Below, one piece after another: positions 2 through 18,802 of a DNA stretch of 20,593 nucleotides (position 1 is its first letter; every line of letters begins with the position of its first letter). Location of the stretch: positions 1 to 20,593 of the IMG/VR virus record IMGVR_UViG_3300042691_046818; one strand, written 5' to 3'. Under the pieces are notes generated by a model, which saw only the letters and a list, made by a program, of their open reading frames with translations, did not search any database and was not told the DNA's origin. Both the position numbers and the translations under genes were made by a program. The stretch is from a virus.

Positions 2-547
2 ACTATTAACGTAATAGGAGATTTTACTTTTGAGTTCTATCTTCAATATCAAAATACAGCTTTTTATGAACCAGCTTCAGAGATTACGCACAATTATTTC
101 ATCTCAGATAACTTCAGTATCACTTACACTGGTCAGCTAACCGCCAGCACTCAAAACCTTACACTCACATTAGTTATTGGCTCTAACACCTATACATTTG
201 ACAACGCCAACCGACTTTTCAGATATCAAAATAGCCGCTACATATTCTTTTCTGTCACGCGAGTAGGGACGAGCATCAAAGTACATTGTGATGGGCAACT
301 GCTGACAGAAAAAGAAGGCTTGGTTACAGATTCCCCAGCAACTAATTTGGCTATTACATCAGCAGAAGTAAGTATGATAGGACGTATTGACTCAATGCGC
401 TTAACAGTAGGCAAAGGAAGATACACTGATGCTATTTATCAACCTCCAGCGATGAGATTTGGTCGGTTAGGTGGGCTTGAAGATGTGGTTCACTCTCAGT
501 CTTTTAATTACTTTCATCGCAGTATTGGTAATCAGATATTCTCTTAA
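2..547 (+). CDS. Partial tail-fibre/adhesin protein, C-terminal LamG-like domain
   Basis: The frame is open from the first bases of the window, so this is the last 181 residues of a longer protein that starts upstream. The visible part is beta-rich and ends with a signature close to RLTVGKGRYT followed by a QPP turn. That matches the C-terminal strand of laminin-G/concanavalin A-like modules, where the pattern is a D-x-(V/M)-R-(I/L)-T-x-G-x-x-R-Y-T stretch and then a proline pair. Such modules are common in phage tail fibres and other virion adhesins and bind glycans or proteins at the host surface. The stop codon lies one base before the start of the next gene, and the last gene of this tail block carries a related module. 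The N-terminal part and any trimerisation or baseplate-anchor region are outside the window. Confidence 0.7.
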   Translation, partial: TINVIGDFTFEFYLQYQNTAFYEPASEITHNYFISDNFSITYTGQLTASTQNLTLTLVIGSNTYTFDNANRLFRYQNSRYIFFSVTRVGTSIKVHCDGQLLTEKEGLVTDSPATNLAITSAEVSMIGRIDSMRLTVGKGRYTDAIYQPPAMRFGRLGGLEDVVHSQSFNYFHRSIGNQIFS

Positions 548-5800: not shown

Positions 5801-5971
5801 GCTGATGATTACGAGTACCGTGACTGGAATACTGATGCACAAATAGGACAAGCCACTGCAATAACTACAAGTGGCTTGAACATCAATTTAGATTCGTTTG
5901 TGGTGTACAGGAGGATTTCGCTTTACAACGGCGCAAGTTTTGCCCCACCTAGTAGTGCTTACACAGTTTAG
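2822..5971 (+). CDS. Large modular tail-fibre/adhesin with lectin-like and Ig-like modules
   Basis: 1049 residues with a clear alternating design. Module 1 (about 28-245), module 2 (about 336-550) and module 3 (about 637-841) each look like concanavalin A/LamG-type jelly rolls. They share an N-terminal loop with an I/L-D-G or F-N-G-x-P-(A/S) turn before a D/N-F strand (FNGQPSIDF in module 1, LDGLPAARFNIDG in module 3). Between them lie two roughly 80-residue Ig/cadherin-like spacers (about 252-335 and 557-636), ending in similar strands (TFSFSLETV and LTFSFNVSIT). The C terminus (about 842-1049) is a canonical LamG module containing FTIAGWLL, FNHIALTKQNGTLRLHVGG and LNINLDSFVVYR. No peptidase or lyase motif is seen. 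It overlaps the upstream gene by 23 bases and its stop codon interlocks with the stop of the - strand gene. It is probably a receptor-binding fibre or virion-surface adhesin. Confidence 0.75.
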   Translation: MKLSAAYNHSFSAGYSYTSQVYDVAKLIPNLNGLYLCNPDYLTFSKIGANGANQIQTIYNLLFDGNFLQASSNPPTLISNDSQFNGQPSIDFANSGNQSLVFRNSVKVGTLIIVYLTRVAGSLPVYSFGSIAGDPPTFFDIFRSGATSLWAEQPLANNSIYNATSRINSRSVSPDVFVPLNNTRILSVTSIDNANQYEIVSGFGGSATGGGLSVRGKIAAIITAESPCPLDILASVEAKLAEIYVNYNGVSISSQPTFRILVDAFFSFDFATIAIDEFFDIVSYTYVSPSGLGLSFTGSILSGYVPEVFDGEFIISITNSNSMVSTFSFSLETVRPDPFVLDFPQQSNITVALSPLKDSDDIPYGIYADTFDNIVKWEDCRRLPNRPLYIASDIGTNQITYDGATASFITNSSLNPRTLLGTTVNCKTLIWVYKQKQIGERFMANGFPDIFANGVLWTTATSEEIFGTTAITQLNTKVNKVAVNAFNYRFPNEYGAIITATNSGTSIPFSGLTSQLKGELLYFIGWSVALGDDELATATHLLANKFFDSTLLLFSTETEFRYTENVIVNLNKKVTEIAGNTIEYEILVNHYSATITGNDLTFTCPTDDFISFTIRAYTSTESLTFSFNVSITLLTNQLYIDLKGLLNTFSSFFIVTPDVVTLSSGNILQLDEYRTNGQELLGVNAVNYITPTQLDGLPAARFNIDGSSRLDFGTPSSSSGYCFIIAYIRKAGQTGIAFLFGQNSNNIFNSGNDGELLATDFYGDVWANGAERERDYVLPEESLSVVIFNSTDLVTINSIAKDRVFEDRSVKGSVAMFCTVDYKIEADLFAVIESSIRDYYQPAKIVTLLNFDSSIVDGSYRAKTLTSNISVLDTVNKKFGATSFPIAKNSVPAYVQVPNDSDYSFLSEDFTIAGWLLADRATTGAEVINIYTQQGLSLFFSADRLYLGRSLVLGLALFSVALPISSTVFNHIALTKQNGTLRLHVGGVRVYEAADDYEYRDWNTDAQIGQATAITTSGLNINLDSFVVYRRISLYNGASFAPPSSAYTV

Positions 5972-6525
5972 TTGAGGTCAAGAACACTTGAAAATTGGCT
6001 CAGATAATTACTTGGGTCAAGTTCGTTGAGTTCGCCTTTACGTTTCATTTCCCGTTCGCGCAAAAATCTCTCGCGCTTGGCTTGTAGCTCCTTCATGTAG
6101 TTGTTCGACTTCTCTAGCGTCTTGAGTTCGGCTGCGGTCGCTGTGCCGTGATGCCGTCTCAGTTTATATAGAAATACCTGAGAGTGCCTAAACTTGAGGT
6201 ACAGTTGCTCTCTTGTTTTATCTTCGCTTCTATAAGCTTTCTTGCGAAGTAGTACAAATTTTCCCAAACCAAAAACATCAATAGGGGCAGTCTCGTCAGC
6301 ACATAACTGAGCTTCAATAGCTTTAGTAATCTCACGGAGGGTTTGGTAGATGAATGCTGGGGTCAGGAAACTTCCCGTATCTGGAAAGCGTTCAAGTAGA
6401 TTGGCATGAGCTTGGAAAACGTAAGCTGGAATGTGTTTGCGCGTCTTCTTGGTCACATTGATAAGGTTTTTCTCTTTCTGCTTCCTTACGATATCGACGT
6501 AAGGTTCGGGTGTAAGTTGTGTCAT
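5968..6525 (-). CDS. HU/IHF-like DNA-binding protein with basic coiled tail
   Basis: 185 residues on the - strand. Residues about 50-123 read like an HU/IHF fold: a helical pair (FIYQTLREITKAIEAQL), then a strand with the family's G-x-G-x-F turn (DVFGLGKFVLLRKK, 83-96), a basic arm, and a closing strand LYLKFRHSQVFLYKLRR (108-124). Bacterial HU is about 90 residues. This protein adds a basic N-terminal helix and a highly charged C-terminal helix (about 130-165). Expected role: bending or compacting phage DNA, or acting at packaging or transcription sites. Its stop (5968-5970) interlocks with the adhesin stop (5969-5971). It is transcribed divergently from the minor head gene across 38 bases. 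The family assignment is by motif reading and moderately sure. Confidence 0.55.
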   Translation of the reverse strand: MTQLTPEPYVDIVRKQKEKNLINVTKKTRKHIPAYVFQAHANLLERFPDTGSFLTPAFIYQTLREITKAIEAQLCADETAPIDVFGLGKFVLLRKKAYRSEDKTREQLYLKFRHSQVFLYKLRRHHGTATAAELKTLEKSNNYMKELQAKRERFLREREMKRKGELNELDPSNYLSQFSSVLDLN

Positions 6526-6563: not shown

Positions 6564-8159
6564 ATGCGAAAGCAGTCCAATAGTTTCAAAGAATTTAAGA
6601 CACAGGAGTACTTCAAAGCATTGGCGGAATCGGTCTTGCTGGTTCGTAGAGCAATCAATAGTAGCTTTGCTGAGTCTACGTTTGTCGATGAGCTAGCTAA
6701 GTGGATTGCTAAGTCCAATGCCAGTATATATGAAGTGCCAGACATGCTCTTTAATAAGTTTGCAGAAAAGAATGTCAAAGATATTACCGACAAATACTTC
6801 CTAAAAATTCAGGTCGAGTTTGGTAAGGTGCTAACTACTAACTTTGAGTCGATGATTAAGCTGGCTATTCGACATCAGATGTACGATTACTTGTACGAAT
6901 ACGGGGATGATGACATTCGTAAGTACTTCGATACCCAAGTTATAAATGAAGACACCAAGGAACTGTCGGCTGAGTTCGCGGCTGGCGATGACACAATTAG
7001 AGAGCTTGGCAATAATAGAAGATATGGATTAACTAAAAGGGCAGTTGAGAATTTACTTAACCAACGAGCAGCACAGACCAATATAAATGATGTAGCCAAG
7101 GTACAAGAGCGTGTCAAAGTAGCCGATGAAGTGTCGCGCAATGTCTACATGCTTAATAAGATAAGTGATAGTACCAACAGTGCCAAGGCTGCCATGATGA
7201 ACTTCCTGTATGGCAGCAATGATGAGAAGCAAAACTTCCTATCGAGTAACTATTTAGGTAAGCGGCGCAGAGTCTTGCAATCGTCATACTCAACTGAAAG
7301 TAACAAACAAATCCGTAAAGCTGTTGCATTATTCCTTGCCTCCAATCGAGAGTACATTACTAACCTCAAGTCTCAACGTAATAAGTATGAGTATGACCTT
7401 GAACTACTAAAGGTAAGAGTCCGTAACATTATCAACAAAGACCAACAAGGCTTGCAAGGGGCATTCAAACAGCAATCACCAGATGTAATTGTAAAGACCG
7501 AGTTGGCAATTGCATACAACTTCGGTAAGGTAGCGGCATTTGGAGGCAAAGCTGATAGGTACAAAAGGTTCCGATGGAATGTCGATAGGGAGTACGCACT
7601 CATTAGTAGATATAAGCGACTAGCAAGGGGCAGCGATAGAACCGACCCTGTACCATGCGAAGACTGCGAAATTCAAGATGGTCTTGAGTATTACTTGTTT
7701 GAGATAATAGAAAATCAAAGAGATGGTGGTGATGTTATCAACTATAAAGCTGGAAATCCTACCACATGGCGAAATCCAGCTAAACCTTCTATTCCATACC
7801 ACCCCATGTGCGCCTGTTATTACAGCCTTGTGGAAGATGTTGACGAAGAAGATTTTGACCCCAAGAAACAGCCTCCAAACAGACCTCCACAAGGAGGCTT
7901 AGGTACACCGATTAAGATTGCTCTCGCTGCTACTGCATTTGTTGCTGGGCTTGCCTTGTTAGCTTCTAATAAGTCATTAGGTAATGCAACTGCCAAGGCT
8001 ATCTACTCTACATTCTCTGCACCTCGACTACCTCCGCCAGATGTAGCTAATTTACCGCGCATAGTAGAGTCAGGATTGGATGCTCTTAACTTTGTTGGGG
8101 CAGAAAAAAATATTGTAAATAAGGTGGCTAAAAGTGTTCAAATCATCAATCGCACTTAG
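6564..8159 (+). CDS. Minor head / head morphogenesis protein (Mu F, SPP1 gp7-like)
   Basis: 531 residues. The N-terminal half is helical and charged. The C-terminal third carries the family signature: a TELAIAYNFGK helix (about 312-322), a W-containing strand (RFRWNVD, about 337), the pair C365-x-x-C368 followed by a D-G turn (DGLEYY), and then HP-x-C-x-C (H413, C416, C418). This Cys/His set is typical of Mu gpF/SPP1 gp7 minor head proteins. They associate with the portal inside the procapsid and help DNA packaging or ejection. After a proline-rich linker there is an unusual hydrophobic helix (about 448-469, IKIALAATAFVAGLALLA), not part of the usual domain. A mini-gene starts inside its 3' end. 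Portal and terminase are not seen nearby. Confidence 0.8.
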   Translation: MRKQSNSFKEFKTQEYFKALAESVLLVRRAINSSFAESTFVDELAKWIAKSNASIYEVPDMLFNKFAEKNVKDITDKYFLKIQVEFGKVLTTNFESMIKLAIRHQMYDYLYEYGDDDIRKYFDTQVINEDTKELSAEFAAGDDTIRELGNNRRYGLTKRAVENLLNQRAAQTNINDVAKVQERVKVADEVSRNVYMLNKISDSTNSAKAAMMNFLYGSNDEKQNFLSSNYLGKRRRVLQSSYSTESNKQIRKAVALFLASNREYITNLKSQRNKYEYDLELLKVRVRNIINKDQQGLQGAFKQQSPDVIVKTELAIAYNFGKVAAFGGKADRYKRFRWNVDREYALISRYKRLARGSDRTDPVPCEDCEIQDGLEYYLFEIIENQRDGGDVINYKAGNPTTWRNPAKPSIPYHPMCACYYSLVEDVDEEDFDPKKQPPNRPPQGGLGTPIKIALAATAFVAGLALLASNKSLGNATAKAIYSTFSAPRLPPPDVANLPRIVESGLDALNFVGAEKNIVNKVAKSVQIINRT

Positions 8160-8271
8160 CCTTGGTATTGCATTGTTACTTCTATTAGTCTTTCCCCCTG
8201 ACCCTGATAGAATAAATTTAGCGCGATTATTTTACGCTTTAATATATCTCCTTCAACACCTTCACCCATGA
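8134..8271 (+). CDS. 45-aa membrane mini-protein, GTG start
   Basis: This is a small frame overlapping the 3' end of the minor head gene by 26 bases and ending in an ATGA overlap with the next gene. GTG at 8134 is preceded by AAGGTGG (8121-8127) with a 6-base gap, one of the best Shine-Dalgarno matches in the window, and an in-frame TAA lies just upstream (8116-8118). The product has a strongly hydrophobic stretch (about residues 6-20, ALSLGIALLLLLVF), a PPDPDR turn, and a second moderately hydrophobic segment (about 29-41). The tight coupling on both sides and the strong ribosome site support a real gene. It could be a holin-like, spanin-like or virion-associated membrane peptide. The function is unknown. 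Confidence 0.6.
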   Translation: MFKSSIALSLGIALLLLLVFPPDPDRINLARLFYALIYLLQHLHP

Positions 8272-8867
8272 CATCCAAACCGCAACAACGAGCTGAATTT
8301 ATATTTGAGGGACTTCAAGCTCTTCAACATGTAGACATTCCTTCAGTTTTTGATGCAGCTCGAAATGCAGTATATGGTTATCACCCTAGTTTCGGGGACA
8401 TGAGTGCGCTTCCTATAGCCATGAACGCCCCTAATTTCCCTAAGTGGGCAAAAACAGCTAAAGAAACTTATAAAGCTAATGCTGCGGATAAACTTCCGAC
8501 TAGAGTTGCTAAAGCTGCACTTGAAACAGGTGGACATGTTCTACGTGATAGTGAAGGTTGGGGGAATCCAATTGCAGATGGTATGTCAGCAACTTATAGG
8601 AATGTTCGAGGAGTTTATGACAAGCAAAAAGAGCTTGGACGCAAGCTAACTCCTAGAGAAGTATTACAAGAATCAGGTAAAGCTGCATTACAAACAGCTA
8701 AGAAGCAAATAATCACAAGACCTAAAATGTATTTTCATGATGCACCTAAGATAGGTCTTTCTGCAATACAAAGTGCTGCACCTAAAATCGGCGAGGCTAT
8801 CTCTAAATTACGCAAACCTAAACTCGCCCCAATGTCCATTTCATTTAAGCATTTTAAGGATTTTTAG
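8268..8867 (+). CDS. Unrecognised 199-aa basic helical protein of the head block
   Basis: No family recognised. The protein is Ala- and Lys-rich and mostly helical, with repeated AKxAxxT-type helices (about 60-85 and 140-165) and a basic C terminus containing KLRKPKLAPMSISFKHF. It has no transmembrane segment or cysteine motif. It starts within an ATGA overlap with the 45-aa mini-gene and its 3' end overlaps the convergent XRE gene by 14 bases. A single PNFPK stretch (about 55-59) resembles the Ala-Asn-Phe motif of the downstream genes but is not a clean match. The basic charge and the position beside minor head and protease genes would suit an internal head protein, an inference from context. 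Confidence 0.55.
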   Translation: MTSKPQQRAEFIFEGLQALQHVDIPSVFDAARNAVYGYHPSFGDMSALPIAMNAPNFPKWAKTAKETYKANAADKLPTRVAKAALETGGHVLRDSEGWGNPIADGMSATYRNVRGVYDKQKELGRKLTPREVLQESGKAALQTAKKQIITRPKMYFHDAPKIGLSAIQSAAPKIGEAISKLRKPKLAPMSISFKHFKDF

Positions 8868-9138: not shown

Positions 9139-10173
9139 ATGAAGAAAACCTCGCCTAATATTGCATATTTTAAAGCCCCAACATCAAGAGCCAACTTTGA
9201 GTTGGGGCAGGTGTTGGTAACTGGCGTTCCTATCAAGGACGAATACACTGCTTTGGTTGCCACTGAAGGCAAATTTACAGATAGCACTGATGTTGAGCAT
9301 GAATTTACTCCTGAACGTTTGCAAACAATTGTTGAACATACTAACAAAGCTATTGATAGCGGCACTGTAGTTCCAGTTTGTGCCGACCACAAGAAAGATA
9401 TTCCCAATACTATTGGAAGTATTTCTGGAAGAGCTTTCACTAAAGTAATTACACCAGAAGACTTACCTAACCAGAACTCTCAACACCTTATCGGTAAGCT
9501 GGGGATGTTCTTATCTGGCGTAAAAGTTGCAGCAGCCAAAGGAATCGAAGCGTTGAAGTCTGGAGTCAAAAGCGTTAGCATGGGACTTAACCTTGACCCC
9601 AATGAGCATCGCATTATGGAACTAAGCCTTGTTCCCATTCCCGCAATTCCTAACATGGGCTTGTTTCATAAGAAGGTCTTGAAGGCAATGAACAGTACTG
9701 CCAATTTTTCAGGTATTCCTGATAGTGGCAATGCCGTTACATGGGATGAACTTGAAGCTAACGACCAAGCAATTGATGATTTACAGGACGAGTACAATGA
9801 AATTTGCCAGAAACTGTGGCTTTTGTTAAAAAACGCTTATGATAACGATGCGATTAACATTGACTCCCCTGAAGTTTTATTGCAATTAATTTATTCTCAG
9901 TTAAATGGTTTTAGTGTAAAAATCATCGAGTTACTTGGATTAACTTCATTGATGCAGCAAATAAACCAGACCGCGCAAGCTGGTGCAATGGCTCCTCAAG
10001 ACCAAGCTGCTCAAACTCAAGCACAGTTGCAAGGGGGTGCTGAGAGTGGCATGACAATCCCACAACTACAACAACAAACCACATATAGACGTGGTACTAA
10101 TAAACTGGCTCAGTTTAATTTATCAAAAAGCACTGCCAAGAAGTATGTAAGAGGAAATGCAGTCAAATGCTAA
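9139..10173 (+). CDS. Prohead maturation protease
   Basis: 344 residues. The N-terminal half resembles the herpesvirus assemblin-like prohead protease fold: a beta region with VVPVCADHKKD (77-87, candidate catalytic H84), a strand G119-KLGMFLSG, then GVKSVSMGLNL (candidate nucleophile S147, or S145), and the family's terminal pattern MELSLVPIPAIPNMG (160-174), equivalent to E-x-S-L-V-x-x-P-A in S78-type proteases. It would cleave scaffold and other head proteins during capsid maturation. The C-terminal half (about 200-344) is helical and Gln/Ala-rich, scaffold-like. The protein contains Ala-Asn-Phe at 18-20 and 188-190 and Ala-Gln-Phe at 324-326. The second lies at the domain boundary, which would suit self-cleavage. 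It overlaps the next gene by 7 bases. Confidence 0.7.
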   Translation: MKKTSPNIAYFKAPTSRANFELGQVLVTGVPIKDEYTALVATEGKFTDSTDVEHEFTPERLQTIVEHTNKAIDSGTVVPVCADHKKDIPNTIGSISGRAFTKVITPEDLPNQNSQHLIGKLGMFLSGVKVAAAKGIEALKSGVKSVSMGLNLDPNEHRIMELSLVPIPAIPNMGLFHKKVLKAMNSTANFSGIPDSGNAVTWDELEANDQAIDDLQDEYNEICQKLWLLLKNAYDNDAINIDSPEVLLQLIYSQLNGFSVKIIELLGLTSLMQQINQTAQAGAMAPQDQAAQTQAQLQGGAESGMTIPQLQQQTTYRRGTNKLAQFNLSKSTAKKYVRGNAVKC

Positions 10174-11501
10174 GTGAATTTGCTATCAGACAAAACCCTA
10201 GAGGAGGAAAGTCTGCCCTCATTTACAATGCTGGAATGCGGCAGAAAAGAAGATTACAAGCTACTGCCAATCCAGTAACCCCTGCAATGACTGATGCGGA
10301 AAAATTTCTTGAACAGAAGAAATTACAAGCTGAAGGTAAAGCTGTCTATAATAGGCGATTACGTGAGCTAGACCCTCCTACTCCTGTTCCTCAACCTACA
10401 CCTGAAGAGATTGTCGCTAATAAAGTCCAACAAAAAGTAGGTATCAAGCAAGGTGTAGCAGACGCAGAAACCCAAAGACTTCGTAATAAGTTTTCAGGTG
10501 GTGGTGGAATTCCTTTAGTTACCCCCGCAGTCAACCATGTCGCTAATAAATTGATTGACAGGGGATTTGGTGAGAGTGCTATTTACGGTACTCTTGGTGG
10601 ATTAACTTTAGCCCCTATTGCCGCAGGTGCAGCTATATATCAAAACAACAAAAATAAGGAGGCTGAGCAAGAAAAACAAGCTCAAGTTCAAGCCCATCGC
10701 GATAAAGTAGCAGAAATCATAGCGAAAAGAAATTTACTTATGGAACAAAGACAAGCAGCACAACAACAATCTGCCCAACCTAAAATACCTTATAACTTCT
10801 TTAGTGCTGCCCCTCTTGTAGCCCCAGCAAATTTTGCGTTCCCTAAAATTGGAGTACGTAGTCCGTTTTTCATCAAGAAAGAAAAAGCACTTCCACTGGC
10901 TGCTGTTGGCGGAACTTTAGTTGCTGGCTATAGTCTGCTGTCCAAACTTAACAAACAAAGAGCGCTCGATGCTTATAAAGTAAATAGCCTTAAAGATAAG
11001 AATGCCCAAGATTTCGCGGCTAATTATTTTGATAGCCCTCAGTACCACGCTGATAACTTGATTCGTGAAGCTGCTAATATTACTGGGAATCCTTTACTTC
11101 AAGGCATCACAGATAATCCTCTTGATAGACTGACTCCAGCACAGCAACAACAACAAGTCAAGAATAAAGGTACTGCTCGATATTCTAGAGGTGCAAATAA
11201 GACTGCAAATTTCTTTGACCCATTCATTGCACCTAGTTTAGCTATTGGTAGTGCAGCTTATGGTATTTATAACAAGAAGAAAGCCGCAGATGAACAGAGT
11301 GAAGTTTTTCAAGCTCAGAAGTTAGCTGCTCTTGACGGAATTAAAGATAAACAACTTCGTCGAGGATTGCTTAACAAAGCACAAAATAGATTTATTGATG
11401 ATGACTCTAAGAACCGTATTATTGACTCTGCTTTCAGAGGAGATATACAAGGTGCTTTGCGGACAGGATTAAAACGTGCTAATTGGGAGGCAATACAATA
11501 A
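10167..11501 (+). CDS. Glycine-zipper modular internal head protein A (polyprotein-like)
   Basis: 444 residues, family not recognised. Three modules can be drawn, split by Ala-Asn-Phe at 221-223 and 347-349. Each contains a glycine/alanine-rich hydrophobic segment flanked by basic residues and a Gln/Lys/Glu-rich helix: about 137-160 (IYGTLGGLTLAPIAAGAAIY), about 249-268 (LPLAAVGGTLVAGYSLL) and about 354-370 (IAPSLAIGSAAYGIYN). The N-terminal third is basic and Pro/Gln-rich. GAGGAA (10151-10156) precedes the ATG by 10 bases, and the gene overlaps the protease by 7 bases. Placement between protease and scaffold suggests an internal head or ejection protein processed during maturation. Processing is inferred from the motif and is not shown. 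Confidence 0.65.
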   Translation: MLSEFAIRQNPRGGKSALIYNAGMRQKRRLQATANPVTPAMTDAEKFLEQKKLQAEGKAVYNRRLRELDPPTPVPQPTPEEIVANKVQQKVGIKQGVADAETQRLRNKFSGGGGIPLVTPAVNHVANKLIDRGFGESAIYGTLGGLTLAPIAAGAAIYQNNKNKEAEQEKQAQVQAHRDKVAEIIAKRNLLMEQRQAAQQQSAQPKIPYNFFSAAPLVAPANFAFPKIGVRSPFFIKKEKALPLAAVGGTLVAGYSLLSKLNKQRALDAYKVNSLKDKNAQDFAANYFDSPQYHADNLIREAANITGNPLLQGITDNPLDRLTPAQQQQQVKNKGTARYSRGANKTANFFDPFIAPSLAIGSAAYGIYNKKKAADEQSEVFQAQKLAALDGIKDKQLRRGLLNKAQNRFIDDDSKNRIIDSAFRGDIQGALRTGLKRANWEAIQ

Positions 11502-11506
11502 AACAT

Positions 11507-11956
11507 ATGGCTAAATTTTCTCGTAATCGCAATTCTACTTATGTGCAATTCAAACGTGCATATAATAAGGCAGTTGCAAATTTCTTCGACCCTTCAGCAT
11601 TAGTTAGTGAAGGTGTAGGTGATTACCTTGGTACAACTCTTGGTGGTCTTGCTGGTAGTGAAGTAGGTCGGGCAGCAGCAGCGCAAACTAAGGCTAGAGC
11701 ATTGAGACGTAGTGCCGACCCAAATGAACGGCACAACCAAACATTAGCTCAACAACTAGAGGCTGCTAGGCAAATTGAAGACCCTAGACAACAAGCTGCG
11801 GCAATCGAAAAAGCCCAATCTCGCGCTGACTATGAATCTGCCAAATTACAACGGTTTGCTGGACTTAAGGGGCTGAGTCAGCAAGCAGGTTATACTGGGT
11901 TAGGAGCTACAACAGGTCTACTCAGTAATACCTTAGCCCATCACTGGAGTAACTAA
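11507..11956 (+). CDS. Glycine-zipper internal head protein B, single module
   Basis: 149 residues from ATG 11507. The frame is open from a TTG at 11483, but that would overlap the preceding gene and lacks support. GGGAGG (11485-11490) lies 16 bases before the ATG, a long gap. The first 23 residues are basic (MAKFSRNRNSTYVQFKRAYN), followed by Ala-Asn-Phe at 24-26 and FDP. A glycine-rich hydrophobic segment (about 37-60, YLGTTLGGLAGSEVGRAAAA) comes next, then a Gln/Glu/Arg helix (about 65-115) and a second small glycine-rich segment near the C terminus. It looks like one unit of the modular neighbours, with the basic leader resembling a removable capsid-targeting peptide. The family is unknown. 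It joins the next gene by a TAATG overlap. Confidence 0.6.
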   Translation: MAKFSRNRNSTYVQFKRAYNKAVANFFDPSALVSEGVGDYLGTTLGGLAGSEVGRAAAAQTKARALRRSADPNERHNQTLAQQLEAARQIEDPRQQAAAIEKAQSRADYESAKLQRFAGLKGLSQQAGYTGLGATTGLLSNTLAHHWSN

Positions 11957-13632
11957 TGACTAAAAAATCGCTATTGCAAAAAAAAGCTAATTTTGCCCAA
12001 CCATCTCTTCTTTCTGCTCTCCCTAACGCAGTGAAGGTTGGGGCTGGGGTTGGTGCAGGACTTGGACTGTTACAAGGTTCTGGTATTCTTGAATCAGATT
12101 CCGAAAAAAAAGCTACTAATGTCGGTAATAGACTTGGTAAAGTACTTACTAGTACTACTGTAGGTGCAGGACTAGGTGCTGGAGTTGGTTATGGCGCTAA
12201 CCGTTATAATAAAACTATAATAGAACCTCAAAAAGAGTTACAAAGACGACAGGCTGTTGTAGCTGAACATGAGTCTGCCAATCCTAGAGGTATTCGTAAA
12301 GCTGTTAAGGTAGTTAAAGATACTGGTAAAGCTGTTGGTGATGGAATTCAATCTGTTAAACAAGAAGTTCAAAGAATTACTAATCCTAATCTCGAACAAC
12401 GTGAAGCAAGGATGGCTGAAGACCTTCAACGACAAACTGGTAATGGGCAACCCTCACTTCTAGACAGAGCTGCTGGTAAGGCACAACAAGATATTGAAAC
12501 AACTAAGCAATTTTTCGGCAATGTGTTTCGACGCAAGCCAACAGGAGAAACTAATCAAGGATTTAATGGACAAACAATTAATATGAGCAAATCAATTCGC
12601 AAAGCAGCTAATTTCCAAGACCCAGCTACAATTCAACGCTTAATCCAAAAAGGCAGTACATATATTCCTCAAGATAATACTGGAGTTGTCAGTCTTGAAT
12701 CTGCAATTAAATTAAAAGGGCAGAAAAAGAAAAAACTAAATGAACCTAAAATCCCTGCTAGTATGAATGTTAAAGAAATTAATTCAATGATTGAATCGGG
12801 CAAGCCAACTGGCAAATATTTTTCTAAAGGTATTCGCAAGTCTGCAAGCTTCCTAAAAAGCCAACAACAAGCTGAGTTTGGTATTGGTGACCAAATCAAC
12901 AGCGCATTAACTTCCGCAGGTAAACTTATTACCCAACCTGCGGCTAAGGCAGTTCGTAAGGCTGCTGTTCAAGTTGGTGGGGGTGATGGTGCTTCCATTT
13001 TAGGTAATAGAATTGCTGCTAAAATCCCTTTTGTAAATCAAATGAATCATGGAGCTGCTAAAGTTGCGGCTGGTGGGTATAAGGCTTTGACTGGAGCTGC
13101 TAATGTACTTGATACTGATAAGGCTGCTAGAATTGCGGCTCTTGGCGTTGGTGGTACTGCACTTGCTGGTGGAGGTCTTCTTGCAGCTAAGTTAGCACAA
13201 AAGAAACAAGAAGATGAAGCTCGTTATAGTAAAAATATTCGCAAATCTGCATCGTTTGGAGTAATTCCTAGTGGGTTAATTCAAGGCGCACAAAAAGCTG
13301 CTGTTGGCACTGGAAAACGCTTTATGAATCTGTCTCCTCAAATCAATCCCGCTAATGTTGGAACTGCTGTTGGTGCTGGACTAGGCGCTCTTGAAGGTTC
13401 AGGTATCAATGAGACAGAAGAAGAACGCAGAGCTACTGGATTAGTTGGTCGCGCCACTAAAGTACTCGGATTAGGCGCTGCTGGAGGTACTGTAGGTCGT
13501 GGTGTCGGTTCTGTGGCTGGTGCTGGTGTAAATCGTTACCAAGCTAATCAACGTCTACAAAATCGTAGACAAACAAATCCTGACGCATTCAAAAATCCTA
13601 GCAAGATTCCTCAGCAAATCGACATAGAATAA
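11956..13632 (+). CDS. Glycine-zipper modular internal head protein C (polyprotein-like)
   Basis: 558 residues, family not recognised. Candidate joints are Ala-Asn-Phe at 11-13 and 218-220 and Ala-Ser-Phe at 297-299 and 432-434, giving five pieces of about 10, 207, 79, 135 and 127 residues. Glycine-zipper stretches lie at about 26-44, 66-82, 394-415, 466-482 and 502-525. The block around 26-86 and that around 466-532 are recognisable repeats of each other. The piece 218-296 has no such stretch and is Lys/Ser-rich instead. Residues before each joint are basic (SIRK, GIRK, NIRK). An internal in-frame Met at 210 begins a segment that looks like the N termini of neighbouring genes, suggesting fusion of formerly separate genes. 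The C terminus is followed by a terminator hairpin. Confidence 0.65.
   Translation: MTKKSLLQKKANFAQPSLLSALPNAVKVGAGVGAGLGLLQGSGILESDSEKKATNVGNRLGKVLTSTTVGAGLGAGVGYGANRYNKTIIEPQKELQRRQAVVAEHESANPRGIRKAVKVVKDTGKAVGDGIQSVKQEVQRITNPNLEQREARMAEDLQRQTGNGQPSLLDRAAGKAQQDIETTKQFFGNVFRRKPTGETNQGFNGQTINMSKSIRKAANFQDPATIQRLIQKGSTYIPQDNTGVVSLESAIKLKGQKKKKLNEPKIPASMNVKEINSMIESGKPTGKYFSKGIRKSASFLKSQQQAEFGIGDQINSALTSAGKLITQPAAKAVRKAAVQVGGGDGASILGNRIAAKIPFVNQMNHGAAKVAAGGYKALTGAANVLDTDKAARIAALGVGGTALAGGGLLAAKLAQKKQEDEARYSKNIRKSASFGVIPSGLIQGAQKAAVGTGKRFMNLSPQINPANVGTAVGAGLGALEGSGINETEEERRATGLVGRATKVLGLGAAGGTVGRGVGSVAGAGVNRYQANQRLQNRRQTNPDAFKNPSKIPQQIDIE
12031..13551 (+). repeat. Duplicated glycine-zipper module inside protein C
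   Basis: Copy 1 (12031-12213) and copy 2 (13351-13551) encode the same order of elements. First is a zipper of the type VGAGLG-(L/A)-L-(Q/E)-GSGI. Next comes an acidic then basic helix with S-(D)-x-E-x-(K/R)-(K/R)-A-T-x-x-(G)-x-(L)-x-(K)-V-L, then a second zipper (TVGAGLGAGVG against TVGRGVGSVAGAG), and finally a closing N-R-Y. The nucleotide sequences have diverged, so this is an old internal duplication maintained at protein level. Confidence 0.65.
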
Positions 13633-13654
13633 CTCTTTACGCCAAAAACCCATA

Positions 13655-13695
13655 AATAATGCCATGCTGAGAAATTAGTGTGGCATTATTGTTTT
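13655..13695 (+). terminator. Rho-independent-type terminator before the scaffold gene
   Basis: The arms AATAATGCCA (13655-13664) and TGGCATTATT (13681-13690) are perfectly complementary. The stem extends inward by two G-U and two Watson-Crick pairs to about 14 bp with an 8-base loop, and is followed by GTTTT. It lies between the end of protein C and the scaffold ATG, so it would end the protease to protein C transcript or attenuate read-through into the scaffold-capsid cassette. Confidence 0.7.
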
Positions 13696-13721
13696 AATCC
13701 TAAAAAACGAAAATAATAAAA

Positions 13722-14606
13722 ATGGATGAAGAACAACAAGATTTAGGCGCTCAGGACGCTGGTATGGAAGGAGAAGGTCAAGATGTGGCTGAACTCAATC
13801 CAACCAATGCTTTTGGCGAATTACTTCTAGACTTAATTAAAATCCAGTTCCAAGAGGACTATTCTGCTGGTATTCAAGCTCTAGTTCAGGCAACTGGATT
13901 AAGCGAAGAAGACGTTGTTGGATACATTAGCGGTGAAAATATCGTTGATGATGTTGAAACTCTTGAAGCAATGATTTCTGCATTCCCTGATGCTACCGAA
14001 GAAGACTTAGATACTCTTATTGATGTTGCTGATGGAGTATTGGAGCAAGACCGTCAAGCTCTAGAAGCACAATACGAAAATGAAGGCGCTGAAGGAGGCG
14101 CAGAAGAACCTATGACTGAAGACGCTGCTAATTACGCTGCGGCATACAACCCAGCAATTCAAGCTAATTTCAATAAGACAGTAGTTAGCGAAATCCAAAA
14201 ACTTCGTGCAGAAAAAGAAGCTCTTGAAGCCCAATTCTCTCAAGCTAACTTTGAAGCACAATTATCTCAAGCGTTGACTGATTTGAACGCTCGCATTAGT
14301 CAAGACGTTGTTGACGGTGTTATCACCCCTGCAATGAAGGAAGCTCTTATCGGTAACTTCTCTGACCCTCGCCAACGAGTTGCTCAGTTTACTGGTATCG
14401 CTCAAACTAACGGTGCGCGTGACTTACAAGAACAACTCAATATGTCAGAGTTTGCCTACAGCTTACTTCGTAATGTTGCAAATGTTACCCAGTTCACTGA
14501 TTTTAGCGTTAGTGCTGAAGAAGTTGCGACTGCTAATTTCTCATCTAGCCTTGAAGAAGCTGCTAAGGGCGACCTTATAGCTATGGGTCTGGATTTCGGA
14601 CTATAA
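13722..14606 (+). CDS. Capsid scaffold protein
   Basis: 294 residues. It is strongly acidic, with an N-terminal DEEQQDLGAQDAG stretch, helical segments rich in Glu, Ala, Gln and Leu, and a central coiled coil (about 151-190, VVSEIQKLRAEKEALEAQFS). This composition, together with its place directly upstream of the decoration and major capsid genes and downstream of the protease, is typical of a phage scaffold. Ala-Asn-Phe occurs three times (148-150, 175-177, 271-273), and GNFSDP, VAQF and EAQF occur as relatives. In this model these would be cut by the protease so that fragments can leave the maturing head. No clear ribosome site precedes the ATG. The stop codon is embedded in the ribosome site of the next gene. 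Confidence 0.7.
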   Translation: MDEEQQDLGAQDAGMEGEGQDVAELNPTNAFGELLLDLIKIQFQEDYSAGIQALVQATGLSEEDVVGYISGENIVDDVETLEAMISAFPDATEEDLDTLIDVADGVLEQDRQALEAQYENEGAEGGAEEPMTEDAANYAAAYNPAIQANFNKTVVSEIQKLRAEKEALEAQFSQANFEAQLSQALTDLNARISQDVVDGVITPAMKEALIGNFSDPRQRVAQFTGIAQTNGARDLQEQLNMSEFAYSLLRNVANVTQFTDFSVSAEEVATANFSSSLEEAAKGDLIAMGLDFGL

Positions 14607-14621
14607 GGAGCAAAAAACACA

Positions 14622-15530
14622 ATGTATTTAACAACTCAAACAATTACCCGCAACGGTAGAGCTATTATCTTCAACGCCGCAGCTAAGAAAGTTGCAATTG
14701 ATGGTGTTGAAATTAAGAGCGCTGATATTCTTCTTAATGCAGAAGGTAAGGCAGTAGCTCCTGAAGGCTCATTTATCGCTACTACTGGCACTTCTGGCGA
14801 AAGAGTTGCCCGTTTCCTTCCTCGCACTCGCTTAAACGCTGCTACAGCTACTAACTCTCCCACCATCTCGTTGAAAACTCCTTGTTCCCAATTTAAAGTT
14901 GGTGATGTACTGTACGCTAAGCATTGTTTTGCTCGAATCAAGTTTGTTGGCACTTTTGCAACTAATGATGTTATTACTGCCAAGATTGGTGGTGTAACTT
15001 ACTCGGCAACTGTAGGCGCTACTCAGACTGGTGCTGGTGCTGCTGCTGATTTTGCAACTGCTAATGCTGCTGCACTATTGACTGCTGGTATTACTTTTGC
15101 TCAAGTCGGTTCTACTGCTGTAGCAACTATTTACGCAAATGATAGCTATGACGTGTACTTCACTACTTCTGGTGCTGCTGGTCAAGTTGTTGTCGAAACT
15201 ACTGAAGCTGGTTACTTAGGCGATAACCTCACTCCTCTAGGTACGATTCTTGCAATCGGCGCTGAAAATGCTACCACTGGTGTTCGCTCGGTAACTTTGG
15301 CTGCTAACGCTGCTCAAGCTCTACCTATCAACTCTATTGTCGGTATTAACGTTGAAGAAGTTCTCGGTTTGTATCCTGACCCTGTAGACCTAACTGGTGA
15401 GCCTGTCCGTCACTTTGCCGTCATCTCTGAAATTGCAGGTATTTACCAAAATAACTTGCCTTACATTGACCGTCAACTGAAGCGTTTGTTTGGTCTGCAC
15501 TTGCACATTAAACCATACTTCAACAAATAA
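14622..15530 (+). CDS. Putative head decoration/capsid-stabilising protein
   Basis: 302 residues, placed between scaffold and major capsid gene as decoration proteins often are. The N terminus (MYLTTQTITRNGRAIIF) is followed by an Ala-rich beta region. Residues about 117-200 look like a separate inserted beta domain (VITAKIGGVTYSATV, an Ala-rich helix, then strands YDVYFTTS and QVVVETT) of the kind found embedded in many phage structural proteins. The C-terminal part contains LGTILAIGAENATTGVRSVTL, reminiscent of decoration-protein strands, and an aromatic and basic end. AAGGAG (14605-14610) lies 11 bases before the ATG. The function is inferred from position and beta content. A second capsid subunit or head fibre is possible. 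Confidence 0.5.
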   Translation: MYLTTQTITRNGRAIIFNAAAKKVAIDGVEIKSADILLNAEGKAVAPEGSFIATTGTSGERVARFLPRTRLNAATATNSPTISLKTPCSQFKVGDVLYAKHCFARIKFVGTFATNDVITAKIGGVTYSATVGATQTGAGAAADFATANAAALLTAGITFAQVGSTAVATIYANDSYDVYFTTSGAAGQVVVETTEAGYLGDNLTPLGTILAIGAENATTGVRSVTLAANAAQALPINSIVGINVEEVLGLYPDPVDLTGEPVRHFAVISEIAGIYQNNLPYIDRQLKRLFGLHLHIKPYFNK

Positions 15531-15549
15531 CGGAGAACATACAAAAAAA

Positions 15550-16785
15550 ATGGCATATATTGAAAATTTCTTAAAAGAAGGACGCGCTGCTAAGGCTGCC
15601 GACCTCGTTGTAAACAACACTCTCCGTCAGTTGAAGGAACGCTCCAAGGTTCTCAATACTTACGTTCCCTTGGTTGAGAAGACTGGTCGTGATTGGCTTG
15701 CGTATATTTCGACAACCGTTGACCCCATTGCCAGTTTGGTTGCCACAGGACAAGACTATCCTGAAGCTAAAAAGGGCGACTTCTCCAAGATTCAAGCTCG
15801 TAACTACAAAGCTGCGATTGCTTATCACTGGGACGAAGACACTCAATGGCGTATGGCTGAGGTTTCGGAACTTGCTAAGATTCGCAACATCACCATTCAG
15901 AACATTCAAGTTTCGGAAGGTAAAGTTCAACTCGGTCAAGATAACGAACTTGCCAAGAATATCTTTGGTACTCTTGCTTCGCTTGTTCGCGGTCACATCA
16001 ACTTGATTGACTACTTGGCTTGGCAGACATTGCAGACTGGTAAGATGCAGTACACTGACCAACGTACAGGCTTGAAGGCAGACCTCGACTGGACAAAGGC
16101 AATCGGCATCCGCGCCAACCACTTCCCCTTTCCTATCTATCAAACTGACTTCAATGGCACTGAGACTGTTGACTCTCTCAAGCGCGACTGGACTCAACAC
16201 GAAACTGCTGACCCTCTGCAAGACCTTGCAGATATGCACACTCAGTACAAGTACACCAATGGTTTCTCTGCTGACGAAATCGCAATTTCTGAGCGCTTAC
16301 TCTTAAACATTGCTCGTTGTAAGTCTGTTAAGGAAGCTGTGGTTGCTGCTAACGTTCTTGGTAATGTTATCACTGGTACTCCTTCGATTGACCAAATCAA
16401 CGAAGTAATGAGTCGTCGTTTCTTGCCCAAGTTTGTTCTAGAAGATGGACAAGTAGAGCTTTCAGACGCAAATGGTCAGTCGGCTCCTACTCGCTTGTTG
16501 GATGAAGGTACTGTTGTATTCTTGTCTCGTCAAGGTCAGTACAATCGTATCTTGGGTGGAACTATTGAGAACAATCAACGGGCAGGAATTTTCCAAAGAA
16601 CTTGGCAGAAGACCCCAATTTTAGATATCAGCGAGTCAGTTTCGATGCAACTCATAGCTGCCCCAACCATTGCCAAATGCGGAATGGCACGCAAATGTGC
16701 AAAAAATGTGAATATTGCGTCGTCTATTTCTCTTGCAGACTTCTTGACTTTCGATAGTTCTCGCGGTCAAACTGTTATTTCCTAA
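15550..16785 (+). CDS. Major capsid protein (lambda gpE / HK97-fold type)
   Basis: 411 residues from ATG 15550, preceded by GGAG (15532-15535) with a long 14-base gap. The frame is open to 15490, but that would overlap the upstream gene. The N-terminal helix (about 1-35) is followed by a DWLAYISTTVDPIAS stretch. The centre has WQTLQTGKMQY followed by LKADLDW, the spine-helix and following strand pattern of gpE-type capsid proteins (L-x-T-G-K then D/E-x-D-(W/F)). The late part reads LLDEGTVVFLSRQG, an N-loop, FQRTWQKTPILDISESVSMQLIAAPTI, matching the end of the same family. It assembles the icosahedral shell. Codon use is richer in C-ending codons than the neighbouring genes, as expected for a highly expressed protein. 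A terminator follows. Confidence 0.85.
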   Translation: MAYIENFLKEGRAAKAADLVVNNTLRQLKERSKVLNTYVPLVEKTGRDWLAYISTTVDPIASLVATGQDYPEAKKGDFSKIQARNYKAAIAYHWDEDTQWRMAEVSELAKIRNITIQNIQVSEGKVQLGQDNELAKNIFGTLASLVRGHINLIDYLAWQTLQTGKMQYTDQRTGLKADLDWTKAIGIRANHFPFPIYQTDFNGTETVDSLKRDWTQHETADPLQDLADMHTQYKYTNGFSADEIAISERLLLNIARCKSVKEAVVAANVLGNVITGTPSIDQINEVMSRRFLPKFVLEDGQVELSDANGQSAPTRLLDEGTVVFLSRQGQYNRILGGTIENNQRAGIFQRTWQKTPILDISESVSMQLIAAPTIAKCGMARKCAKNVNIASSISLADFLTFDSSRGQTVIS

Positions 16786-16860: not shown

Positions 16861-16941
16861 ATGTGGATACCGATAGCTACGGGAAAAGACTTCTGGAGTC
16901 CTGCCACTTTTCTAGTTTCCAGATTAACCAGTAAAAATTAA
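16861..16941 (+). CDS. Possible 26-aa leader ORF before the homing endonuclease
   Basis: ATG 16861 opens a 26-codon frame (MWIPIATGKDFWSPATFLVS then RLTSKN) whose TAA overlaps the endonuclease ATG in a TAATG arrangement. There is no Shine-Dalgarno. The stretch also contains an inverted repeat, TCTGGA (16892-16897) and TCCAGA (16918-16923). It could be a leader peptide coupling translation, a remnant of an interrupted gene, or chance. Confidence 0.2.
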   Translation: MWIPIATGKDFWSPATFLVSRLTSKN

Positions 16942-17741
16942 TGACAAAAATTCAAGGTATTTATAAAATTACCAATATAGTAAATGGTAAATTTTATATA
17001 GGCAGCAGCGTAAATTTAAAAAATAGGTTGGCAAATCATTTTTCTAAGCTTAGAAACAATAAGCATTCCAATATTTATTTGCAAAGAGCTTTTATAGTTC
17101 ATGGAGAAGCTAACTTTAAAGCTGAAATTGTAGAAGTGACTGATAATCTACACCAATCTGAATTACTAGATATAGAACAGAAATATCTTGATGATATAGA
17201 GGATTGGAATACCTCCTATAATCTAACAAAAAATACCAAAGCTTTTGGGACTATATATGCAGATGAAACTGAAAAAAGAGCTAAAAAATCTGCCAGAGTG
17301 ATAGGGGATAACAACCCTTTTTACGGTAAGACTCATTCACAAGAAAACAAAATGCTTATGACCGAATCGAAAAGAAAACGAGGAGGTAGTGCCTATAGAA
17401 AATCAGATAGTGCAAGATGGGAAACAAGTATTAAGGTAGATAAAAAATCAATTTATCTAGGGTCTTACGAAACTGAGAAGGAAGCTTGTTATGTAAGAGT
17501 CTTAGCTGAAAAATTTTACTGGGACAAAGATGGTTCTGTAAAAGAAGAATTAGATAAGGCTCAACTGAGCAGCCCCAAAAAATCCCGAAAACTGCCGTCT
17601 GGTGTGTATAAAAAAGGTAAATACGACAAGTATGAAGCTCGATTAGTTATAAACAAACAAAAAATCTATATCGGTACGTTTGATACACCAGAACTTGCTT
17701 ATACAGCTAGGCAAGAAGCTCTCCAATCTCTGCTATCATAA
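16941..17741 (+). CDS. GIY-YIG homing endonuclease with NUMOD3 and two AP2-like domains
   Basis: 266 residues. Residues 6-21 hold GIYKITN and YIGSS, the GIY and YIG strands. R29 (NLKNRL) is the candidate catalytic arginine and E79 in DIEQKYL the metal-binding glutamate, with N94 after. Residues about 120-140 (GDNNPFYGKTHS) are a NUMOD3 DNA-binding motif. Two AP2-like three-strand-plus-helix units follow (about 151-195 and 219-262), each with a (W/Y)-E-(A/T)-x-(L/I)-x-V/I and I-Y-(L/I)-G-(S/T)-(Y/F)-(E/D)-T core. The enzyme makes a break or nick at its target so the gene spreads by repair. It sits free-standing right after the capsid gene, between terminator and connector genes. The base composition is more AT-rich than the neighbours, fitting recent insertion. 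All key residues seem intact. Confidence 0.9.
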   Translation: MTKIQGIYKITNIVNGKFYIGSSVNLKNRLANHFSKLRNNKHSNIYLQRAFIVHGEANFKAEIVEVTDNLHQSELLDIEQKYLDDIEDWNTSYNLTKNTKAFGTIYADETEKRAKKSARVIGDNNPFYGKTHSQENKMLMTESKRKRGGSAYRKSDSARWETSIKVDKKSIYLGSYETEKEACYVRVLAEKFYWDKDGSVKEELDKAQLSSPKKSRKLPSGVYKKGKYDKYEARLVINKQKIYIGTFDTPELAYTARQEALQSLLS

Positions 17742-17763: not shown

Positions 17764-18291
17764 ATGACTCAGAAGACCCCTCCTAGAATTTACCGCATAT
17801 TCCCTGCTTACATCAATAACGACGGTCACACTGTTTTAGCAGGTGAGTACAAAGAATATGAAATCGATATTAACGAAGCTAGGCAAAAATCTACAGCAAT
17901 ACTAGTTAATGCCTCCGACTTCCAAGATATCCAACCCACAACCGCAGCACCTGACATCAACTTCATCGCAAGCAATGATGTCTCTTTTCAAAACGTACCT
18001 GTTATAGTCAGTGTCAAAAAGTTGAAAATCAACTCTTGCGAACCTTCAGAAATTGAAGCTTTGAAGTTTGTCGGTAAAGTGGCTACCCAAAAAATTTCAG
18101 AGTATCGTAAAGATGCTAAAATAGAATCATATACACAACTAGACAAGATTGCTCCGCTAAAGAGTAAGAAATGGGAAGACATTGCCGTTATCGACTTTGA
18201 ATTACCCGACCCCACTTATGGACTAGTCTACGAAGGACTAAAGACATTCGGATATACGGCAGAAAACATCAGTGATAAACCAGCTAACTAA
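17764..18291 (+). CDS. Connector-region protein with helix-hairpin-helix domain
   Basis: 175 residues from ATG 17764. An upstream in-frame ATG (17680) would overlap the endonuclease gene and is not supported. Residues 1-50 are a beta-rich N-terminal part (RIYRIFPAYINNDGHTVLAGEY). Residues about 86-145 match a ComEA-type double helix-hairpin-helix: LKINSCEPSEIEALKFVG, ATQKISEYRKDAKI, YTQLDKIAPLKSKKWEDI. This is the pattern L-N-x-A-x-x-x-E-L-x-x-L-x-G-(I/V)-G-x-x-x-A-x-x-I. HhH domains bind DNA backbone without sequence preference, so the protein could contact the genome end at the head-tail connector. It is the first gene after the inserted endonuclease and so the likely original neighbour of the capsid gene. 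Confidence 0.6.
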   Translation: MTQKTPPRIYRIFPAYINNDGHTVLAGEYKEYEIDINEARQKSTAILVNASDFQDIQPTTAAPDINFIASNDVSFQNVPVIVSVKKLKINSCEPSEIEALKFVGKVATQKISEYRKDAKIESYTQLDKIAPLKSKKWEDIAVIDFELPDPTYGLVYEGLKTFGYTAENISDKPAN

Positions 18292-18310
18292 TCCTCTAGC
18301 AGGACAGAAA

Positions 18311-18802
18311 ATGAAACAGGGGGCAATGAAGCCAATGTTCGGCGACCGATTGCCCCAAGCTCGTCCCAACGCCACCAACAAGAAAAGTGGTGGTTTTACA
18401 GCACCAGTAGTAAAGAGGCGTAAAGGAGTAATTTCAGCAGGTATGGGTAAAAACATGACATTTGCATTTATGAACACAGACATTGCTTCTTTCAGTTCAG
18501 ACAAACCCTCACTTCTTTTTTCTGCCTCAGAGCATAGCGGAGTTGCCGAGTTCCTAAATTTAACTGGTCGCCAACGATATTACAGTATCGATGATATCCC
18601 CGACGACGAGTTAGCAGAAATGACTGACCAACAAATTAACGAAGCAATTCATCGTCAACAAGAAGTTGAAGCAAAAAACAAAATTAGAGAAAGTGCGAAC
18701 CAACGGGCTAACTACCGCGCCAAGTTAGATACTTTCCGAGAAGGTAAATCTGCTATTCGTCAAGGTTACCTTCCTTATGTTGGTAAATTAATGTACGGCT
18801 AA
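18311..18802 (+). CDS. Unrecognised 163-aa connector-region protein
   Basis: I chose ATG 18311 because AGGA (18301-18304) lies 6 bases upstream and this start avoids overlap. A GTG at 18272 would add 13 residues and overlap the preceding gene by 20 bases. The N-terminal 40 residues are basic and flexible (Pro, Asn, Gly, Lys). A hydrophobic aromatic stretch (MTFAFMNTDIASF) follows, and a long charged helix fills the C-terminal half (DELAEMTDQQINEAIHRQQE and onward, Arg/Glu/Gln-rich) before GYLPYVGKLMYG. No family recognised. Its position between the HhH protein and the next genes suggests a head-completion or neck role. Confidence 0.6.
   Translation: MKQGAMKPMFGDRLPQARPNATNKKSGGFTAPVVKRRKGVISAGMGKNMTFAFMNTDIASFSSDKPSLLFSASEHSGVAEFLNLTGRQRYYSIDDIPDDELAEMTDQQINEAIHRQQEVEAKNKIRESANQRANYRAKLDTFREGKSAIRQGYLPYVGKLMYG

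Follow-up and report, generated by a model that had tools for sequence, protein, structure and literature searches.

In phage T4, unrelated internal proteins share a short N-terminal peptide, the capsid targeting sequence, which reads MKTYQEF in internal proteins II and III and MKTFKEF in internal protein I. Targeting rests chiefly on residues 4 and 7 of this peptide, and the head protease gp21 then removes it (PMC9026906). The head proteins of phiKZ and SPN3US are cut at three-residue sites (S/A-x-E and A-x-E, respectively), with several sites per protein, self-cleavage and many inner proteins. In phage P1, the head protease removes the N-terminus of the head-packaged protein DarA (PMC12810830).

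The window analysed here is a 20.6 kb viral contig (IMG/VR record IMGVR_UViG_3300042691_046818, positions 1-20,593), with the Pseudanabaena phages Pam2 and PA-SR01 among its relatives. Capsid proteins are at least 77% identical across the relatives, which form one narrow clade, and counts across them are therefore not statistically independent. Searches of IMG/VR with the protease and capsid proteins, and of GTDB genomes with the capsid protein, found no more distant relatives. The inner proteins encoded between protease and scaffold were compared in 13 related haplotypes, and N-terminal tags were surveyed in six phage genomes of about 140 kb (Pam2, PA-SR01 and four IMG/VR records of 142-148 kb).

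A three-residue motif, Ala-x-Phe, is real, selected and specific to this clade. We lean towards reading it as a signal core that both targets proteins to the head interior and is cut by the head protease, after Phe. Ala-[polar]-Phe would send proteins into the growing phage head. Stand-alone cargo would carry the signal at its N-terminus, as M-x-H-F-A-N-F or M-R-K-S-A-N-F, and fused cargo at module joints or sometimes at the exact C-terminus; it would be repeated in the scaffold and the head protease, both of which are needed inside the head. The protease would most likely cut after Phe, freeing modules, trimming tags and cutting up the scaffold, with tags removed much as the T4 head protease removes the targeting peptide. 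What we observed is where the motif sits, how specific and how conserved it is, that it is restricted to the clade, and its bias to the late strand; the location in the head, the binding partner, the cleavage and the bond cut are inferred.

Such a system would resemble that of T4 in having a short N-terminal peptide common to unrelated proteins, with Phe at positions 4 and 7 of the clade tag MQHFANF where the T4 internal proteins have Tyr or Phe at 4 and Phe at 7. It differs in that the motif also occurs at C-termini and module joints, in that the tag is without the L/I-x-E cut site of the T4 peptide, and in a capsid protein resembling the lambda E type (PF03864/phrog_29). The phiKZ and SPN3US sites likewise have three residues with a small one two before the cut, and several predicted sites per protein, predicted self-cleavage and many inner proteins are further likenesses; however, Phe stands here where those sites have Glu, and this is a different, smaller phage lineage. 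By analogy, then, the motif would work like the T4 targeting sequence combined with a head protease, and we claim membership in neither the T4 nor the phiKZ/SPN3US family. Two ejection proteins of the unrelated giant phage SPN3US, gp53 and gp54, start MANF (PMC5694885), which may be a coincidence or may reflect a wider aromatic targeting rule.

An earlier note on this DNA had counted ten ANF and two ASF in the five genes from protease to scaffold, and these figures stand; of AQF, there are three, only the basic-flanked one having been listed. Further copies overlooked earlier are AEF at residue 306 of the inner protein p558, AEF and a C-terminal FKHFKDF in p199, and ASF and AEF in p176. No tripeptide of the block is commoner than ANF (10 copies; the runner-up has 6), and 5000 within-protein shuffles of the five genes gave a mean of 0.48 and a maximum of 4, in line with the earlier expectation of well under one. 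As had also been noted, the window holds a single ANF outside the block, in a homing endonuclease gene, where its context differs and it looks like a chance occurrence. That gene (16941-17741), by eye of GIY-YIG type, is inserted behind the capsid gene, a position at which neither Pam2 nor PA-SR01 was seen to have it.

The motif is broader than ANF, its core being Ala-[N,S,E,D,Q]-Phe. Among 94 unique contexts, the middle place is taken by N in 48, by E in 23, by S in 11, by D in 5, by T in 3, and by Q and V in 2 each; Lys/Arg and Ser often directly precede the motif, no residue is fixed after Phe, and Phe itself is constant throughout these counts because it is part of how the motif was defined. 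A cut between Ala and Ser, like that of herpesvirus assemblin, was considered as another reading of the motif. We tentatively prefer a predicted cut after Phe: this residue is invariant, whereas the middle one varies and no position behind Phe is fixed. The codon variation between copies described before extends across relatives, with 36 distinct 9-mers in 102 unique contexts, and the motif is conserved as amino acids and not as DNA. The earlier proposal had been made to depend on conservation in homologues, and Pam2, PA-SR01 and the IMG/VR relatives do share the motif, its positions and its restriction to the head-interior block. Pam2 and PA-SR01 bear it in most of the corresponding genes, the PA-SR01 counterpart of p444 having ATF, ADF and AEF in place of ANF, while the capsid and decoration candidates of both phages are without ANF and the Pam2 portal is without A[NSEDQ]F.

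Outside the block, several ANF in Pam2 are located at protein ends, and in the six genomes many late ORFs start M-x-H-F-[AV]-[NSED]-F, with bodies in many unrelated clusters. The pattern HF[AVK][NSED]F occurs 44 times in these genomes: 34 at residue 3 after the start codon, seven exactly C-terminal and three at internal joints. In 17 of 33 N-terminal tags the next residue is Gly, against a background of 8%. Of 39 tagged ORFs, 36 share the strand of the capsid gene (others, 388 of 1114), a bias expected of late genes. Across all IMG/VR, MQHFANF starts were found in 22 stretches, 17 of them in the clade and the other five open for just 11-52 codons, so within IMG/VR real genes starting MQHFANF are limited to this clade. 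Chance or composition bias could draw on a block rich in Ala, Asn and Gln, but can practically be dismissed given the shuffles, the 26 occurrences of HFANF in the six genomes against four for all its permutations together, and the DNA pattern for MxHFANF, with 21 matches in seven of nine records and none for the reversed-pattern control.

These heptapeptides bear on what the earlier note had proposed, a cut site recognised by the prohead protease in anything present in the head, with no targeting. That proposal accounts for the copies at joints and in protease and scaffold, for the conservation upstream of, and including, Phe, and has comparable sites in SPN3US and phiKZ; against it stand the many copies genome-wide that are N-terminal heptapeptides, as unrelated proteins that begin with a near-fixed M-x-H-F-A-N-F have more than a cut needs. 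Taken alone, a cut site is improbable. Heptapeptide starts on unrelated proteins fit targeting, which the placement of the motif supports well and which we consider likely, with or without cutting. The note had offered a tag as the alternative to a cut site; each of the two finds part support, the motif being probably both.

The tagged proteins include a SNF2/DEAD-type helicase. This DEAD/DEAH helicase (L003:24502-25917 and L007:4314-5729, both minus strand) lies on the opposite strand between the inner proteins and the scaffold; its annotation in PA-SR01 is probably 127 residues too long, with MEHFANF, at which the homologue starts, as the probable true start. One tagged protein matches DUF5754 (E 8.9e-12) and phrog_220, 'minor head protein and DNA pilot'. 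A regular expression for a JAMM-like HxHP...S..D pattern found four ORFs in the six genomes (L002:37932-38654, L071:9709-10620, L078:18976-19926 and L084:3217-3948), all four tagged, with weak Pfam matches to Prok-JAB (E 0.12) and DUF4329 (E 0.02); these are candidate injected metalloproteases. The tagged proteins would be packaged and injected, and the helicase among them recalls head-packaged proteins such as P1 DarA; an anti-defence function is speculation.

A structural or membrane-related short motif of one inner-protein family, spread by gene duplication and concerned with neither targeting nor cutting, would fit the glycine-zipper-like stretches in many bearers, which are commoner in tagged ORFs (8 of 39) than in the others (24 of 1114). 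Its bearers, however, include helicase, protease and scaffold, which have no common domain, and their codons have diverged while the residues were kept; we give this explanation little credence. A repeated glycine-zipper-like hairpin (GAGVGAGLGLLQGSG..E..RLGKVL..G.GAG.G) is seen in p558 (11956-13632) and its relatives; some copies are modules within fused proteins, others stand alone as tagged proteins, and the hairpin may insert into membranes upon injection.

The candidate head protease (9139-10173, plus strand) is weakly identified by sequence. The phrog_976 head maturation protease profile matches 14 of 14 homologues, the best at a weak E of 2.5e-5, and the PA-SR01 homologue has a published HHpred match to Mu-like prophage I protein, PF10123 (PMC7431792), a likeness to Mu protease I and the HK97-type prohead proteases. 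In contrast, hhalign with a shallow profile matched neither Mu I nor the Bantam protease, and a search of solved structures with the protease profile gave a single chance-level match (E 0.12). H84 and S147 do not vary among close homologues and are candidate catalytic residues. The AlphaFold2 model has a mean pLDDT of 33.5, the alignment being too shallow for a usable model. The protease has ANF close to its N-terminus (9190-9198, residue 18), ANF at 9700-9708 (residue 188), directly past the profile match (residues 41-191), and AQF close to its C-terminus (10108-10116, residue 324). Each of the three copies keeps its Ala and Phe in all 14 homologues, although indels adjoin the first two.

The scaffold candidate (13722-14606, plus strand), assigned by gene order as in Gordonia phage Bantam, has ANF at 14163-14171, 14244-14252 and 14532-14540 (residues 148, 175 and 271) and AQF at 14229-14237 and 14382-14390 (residues 170 and 221). 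Ala and Phe of all five copies are invariant in 14 homologues, with N and Q swapped in the middle at two. Behind it, also on the plus strand, are p302 (14622-15530), a possible decoration protein by the same gene order, and the major capsid protein (15535-16785; phrog_29, E 3e-19), both without ANF, ASF and AQF. The capsid protein does have one LADF close to its C-terminus, and A[DE]F there counts against a head-interior signal.

Elsewhere in the window, a 185-aa protein (5968-6525, minus strand) looks by eye like an HU/IHF-type DNA-binding protein, and a 531-aa protein with CEDC...HPMCAC (6564-8159) like a Mu gpF/SPP1 gp7 minor head protein, with no family match above threshold. The Pam2 homologue (L002:2064-3905) of window 2-547 is annotated as botulinum neurotoxin, probably a misleading name for a lectin-like domain of a structural protein.

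The remaining bearers, all on the plus strand, begin upstream of the interval first considered with p199 (8268-8867), a candidate tagged protein with AEF at 8292-8300 and HFKDF at its C-terminus (8850-8864). Its homologues in PA-SR01 and two IMG/VR relatives (G001 and G004) terminate FKHFKNF, and this family end, FKHFK[ND]F, is without Ala and counts against an Ala-x-Phe core. The inner-protein candidate p444 (10167-11501) has ANF at 10827-10835 and 11205-11213 (residues 221 and 347). It is followed by p157 (11507-11956; mechanical ORF from 11483, MAKF start), with ANF at 11576-11584 (residue 32), whose counterpart in Pam2 is fused behind another module. The modular p558 has ANF at 11986-11994 and 12607-12615 (residues 11 and 218), ASF at 12844-12852 and 13249-13257 (residues 297 and 432) and AEF at 12871-12879; its AlphaFold2 model has a mean pLDDT of 38.1, again from too shallow an alignment. 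A weaker candidate, p176 (18272-18802), has ASF at 18485-18493, with ANF in its place in some relatives, and AEF at 18545-18553.

Across the 13 haplotypes, the inner proteins from protease to scaffold are highly mosaic and rapidly shuffled, and the motif marks their module joints and N-termini. Pam2_17 and a 678-aa protein of L032 each have a whole extra module between two motif copies, and the QDPATIQR module stands behind KAVADF in PA-SR01 457 and behind RKSANF or RKAANF in Pam2 and the window. The motif lies within 14 residues upstream of 41 of 111 module starts (13.0 expected, maximum 25 under random rotation) and within eight residues downstream of 19 of 122 module ends (8.9 expected, maximum 19), the homology breakpoints not being statistically independent since the phages are related.

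In the relative G003, a Pam2_46-like protein and a tag-initiated protein form one ORF, joined at QHFANF followed by GIGG. The first partner terminates exactly at HFANF in Pam2, PA-SR01 and G002, and at HFVNF in G001; a relative of the second starts MQHFANFG in G004, and the alignment of Pam2_118 to stand-alone MQHFANFALSPEQQ proteins starts exactly at HF. The predicted cut after Phe would thus yield the C-terminus of the split form from the fused form of G003.

If Ala-x-Phe were a tag only, docking cargo, scaffold and protease to a pocket of the capsid or core and never cut, the strong N-terminal bias and the exact C-terminal copies would be expected, N-terminal tags would require no cut, and joints could be what is left where tagged genes fused, a few still reading M[SN]K.IRKSANF. 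By itself, however, a tag leaves unexplained the copies flanking the protease core, the five scaffold copies and the fused protein splitting exactly after Phe, and we think it rather unlikely to be the whole account. The joints, the three protease copies, the scaffold copies and the protein that ends at Phe when unfused are what stands of the earlier prohead-protease proposal, and cutting, with or without targeting, seems probable. Exact C-terminal copies were considered as a refutation of cleavage and set aside, as one such family, that of the G003 fusion, matches the product of a cut after Phe.

The combined reading, targeting followed by a cut after Phe, would have several consequences. These phages are a freshwater cyanophage lineage in which nearly all genes are unannotated, and their protease gains a concrete predicted specificity. 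Packed and injected phage proteins are normally found only via proteomics, and a readable tag would predict the list. The tag is also a candidate for use in loading these phage heads with foreign proteins, and, with its aromatics at positions 4 and 7, it would be a T4-like way of handling cargo alongside a different type of capsid protein. We suggest tentatively, at somewhat less than even confidence, that in this cyanophage clade the single three-residue Ala-x-Phe is both head-interior address and protease site, with inner modules and injected proteins swapped as cassettes. If this is true, cassettes such as the helicase, JAMM-like and glycine-zipper proteins would be tagged or fused, and the cargo list could be read from sequence.
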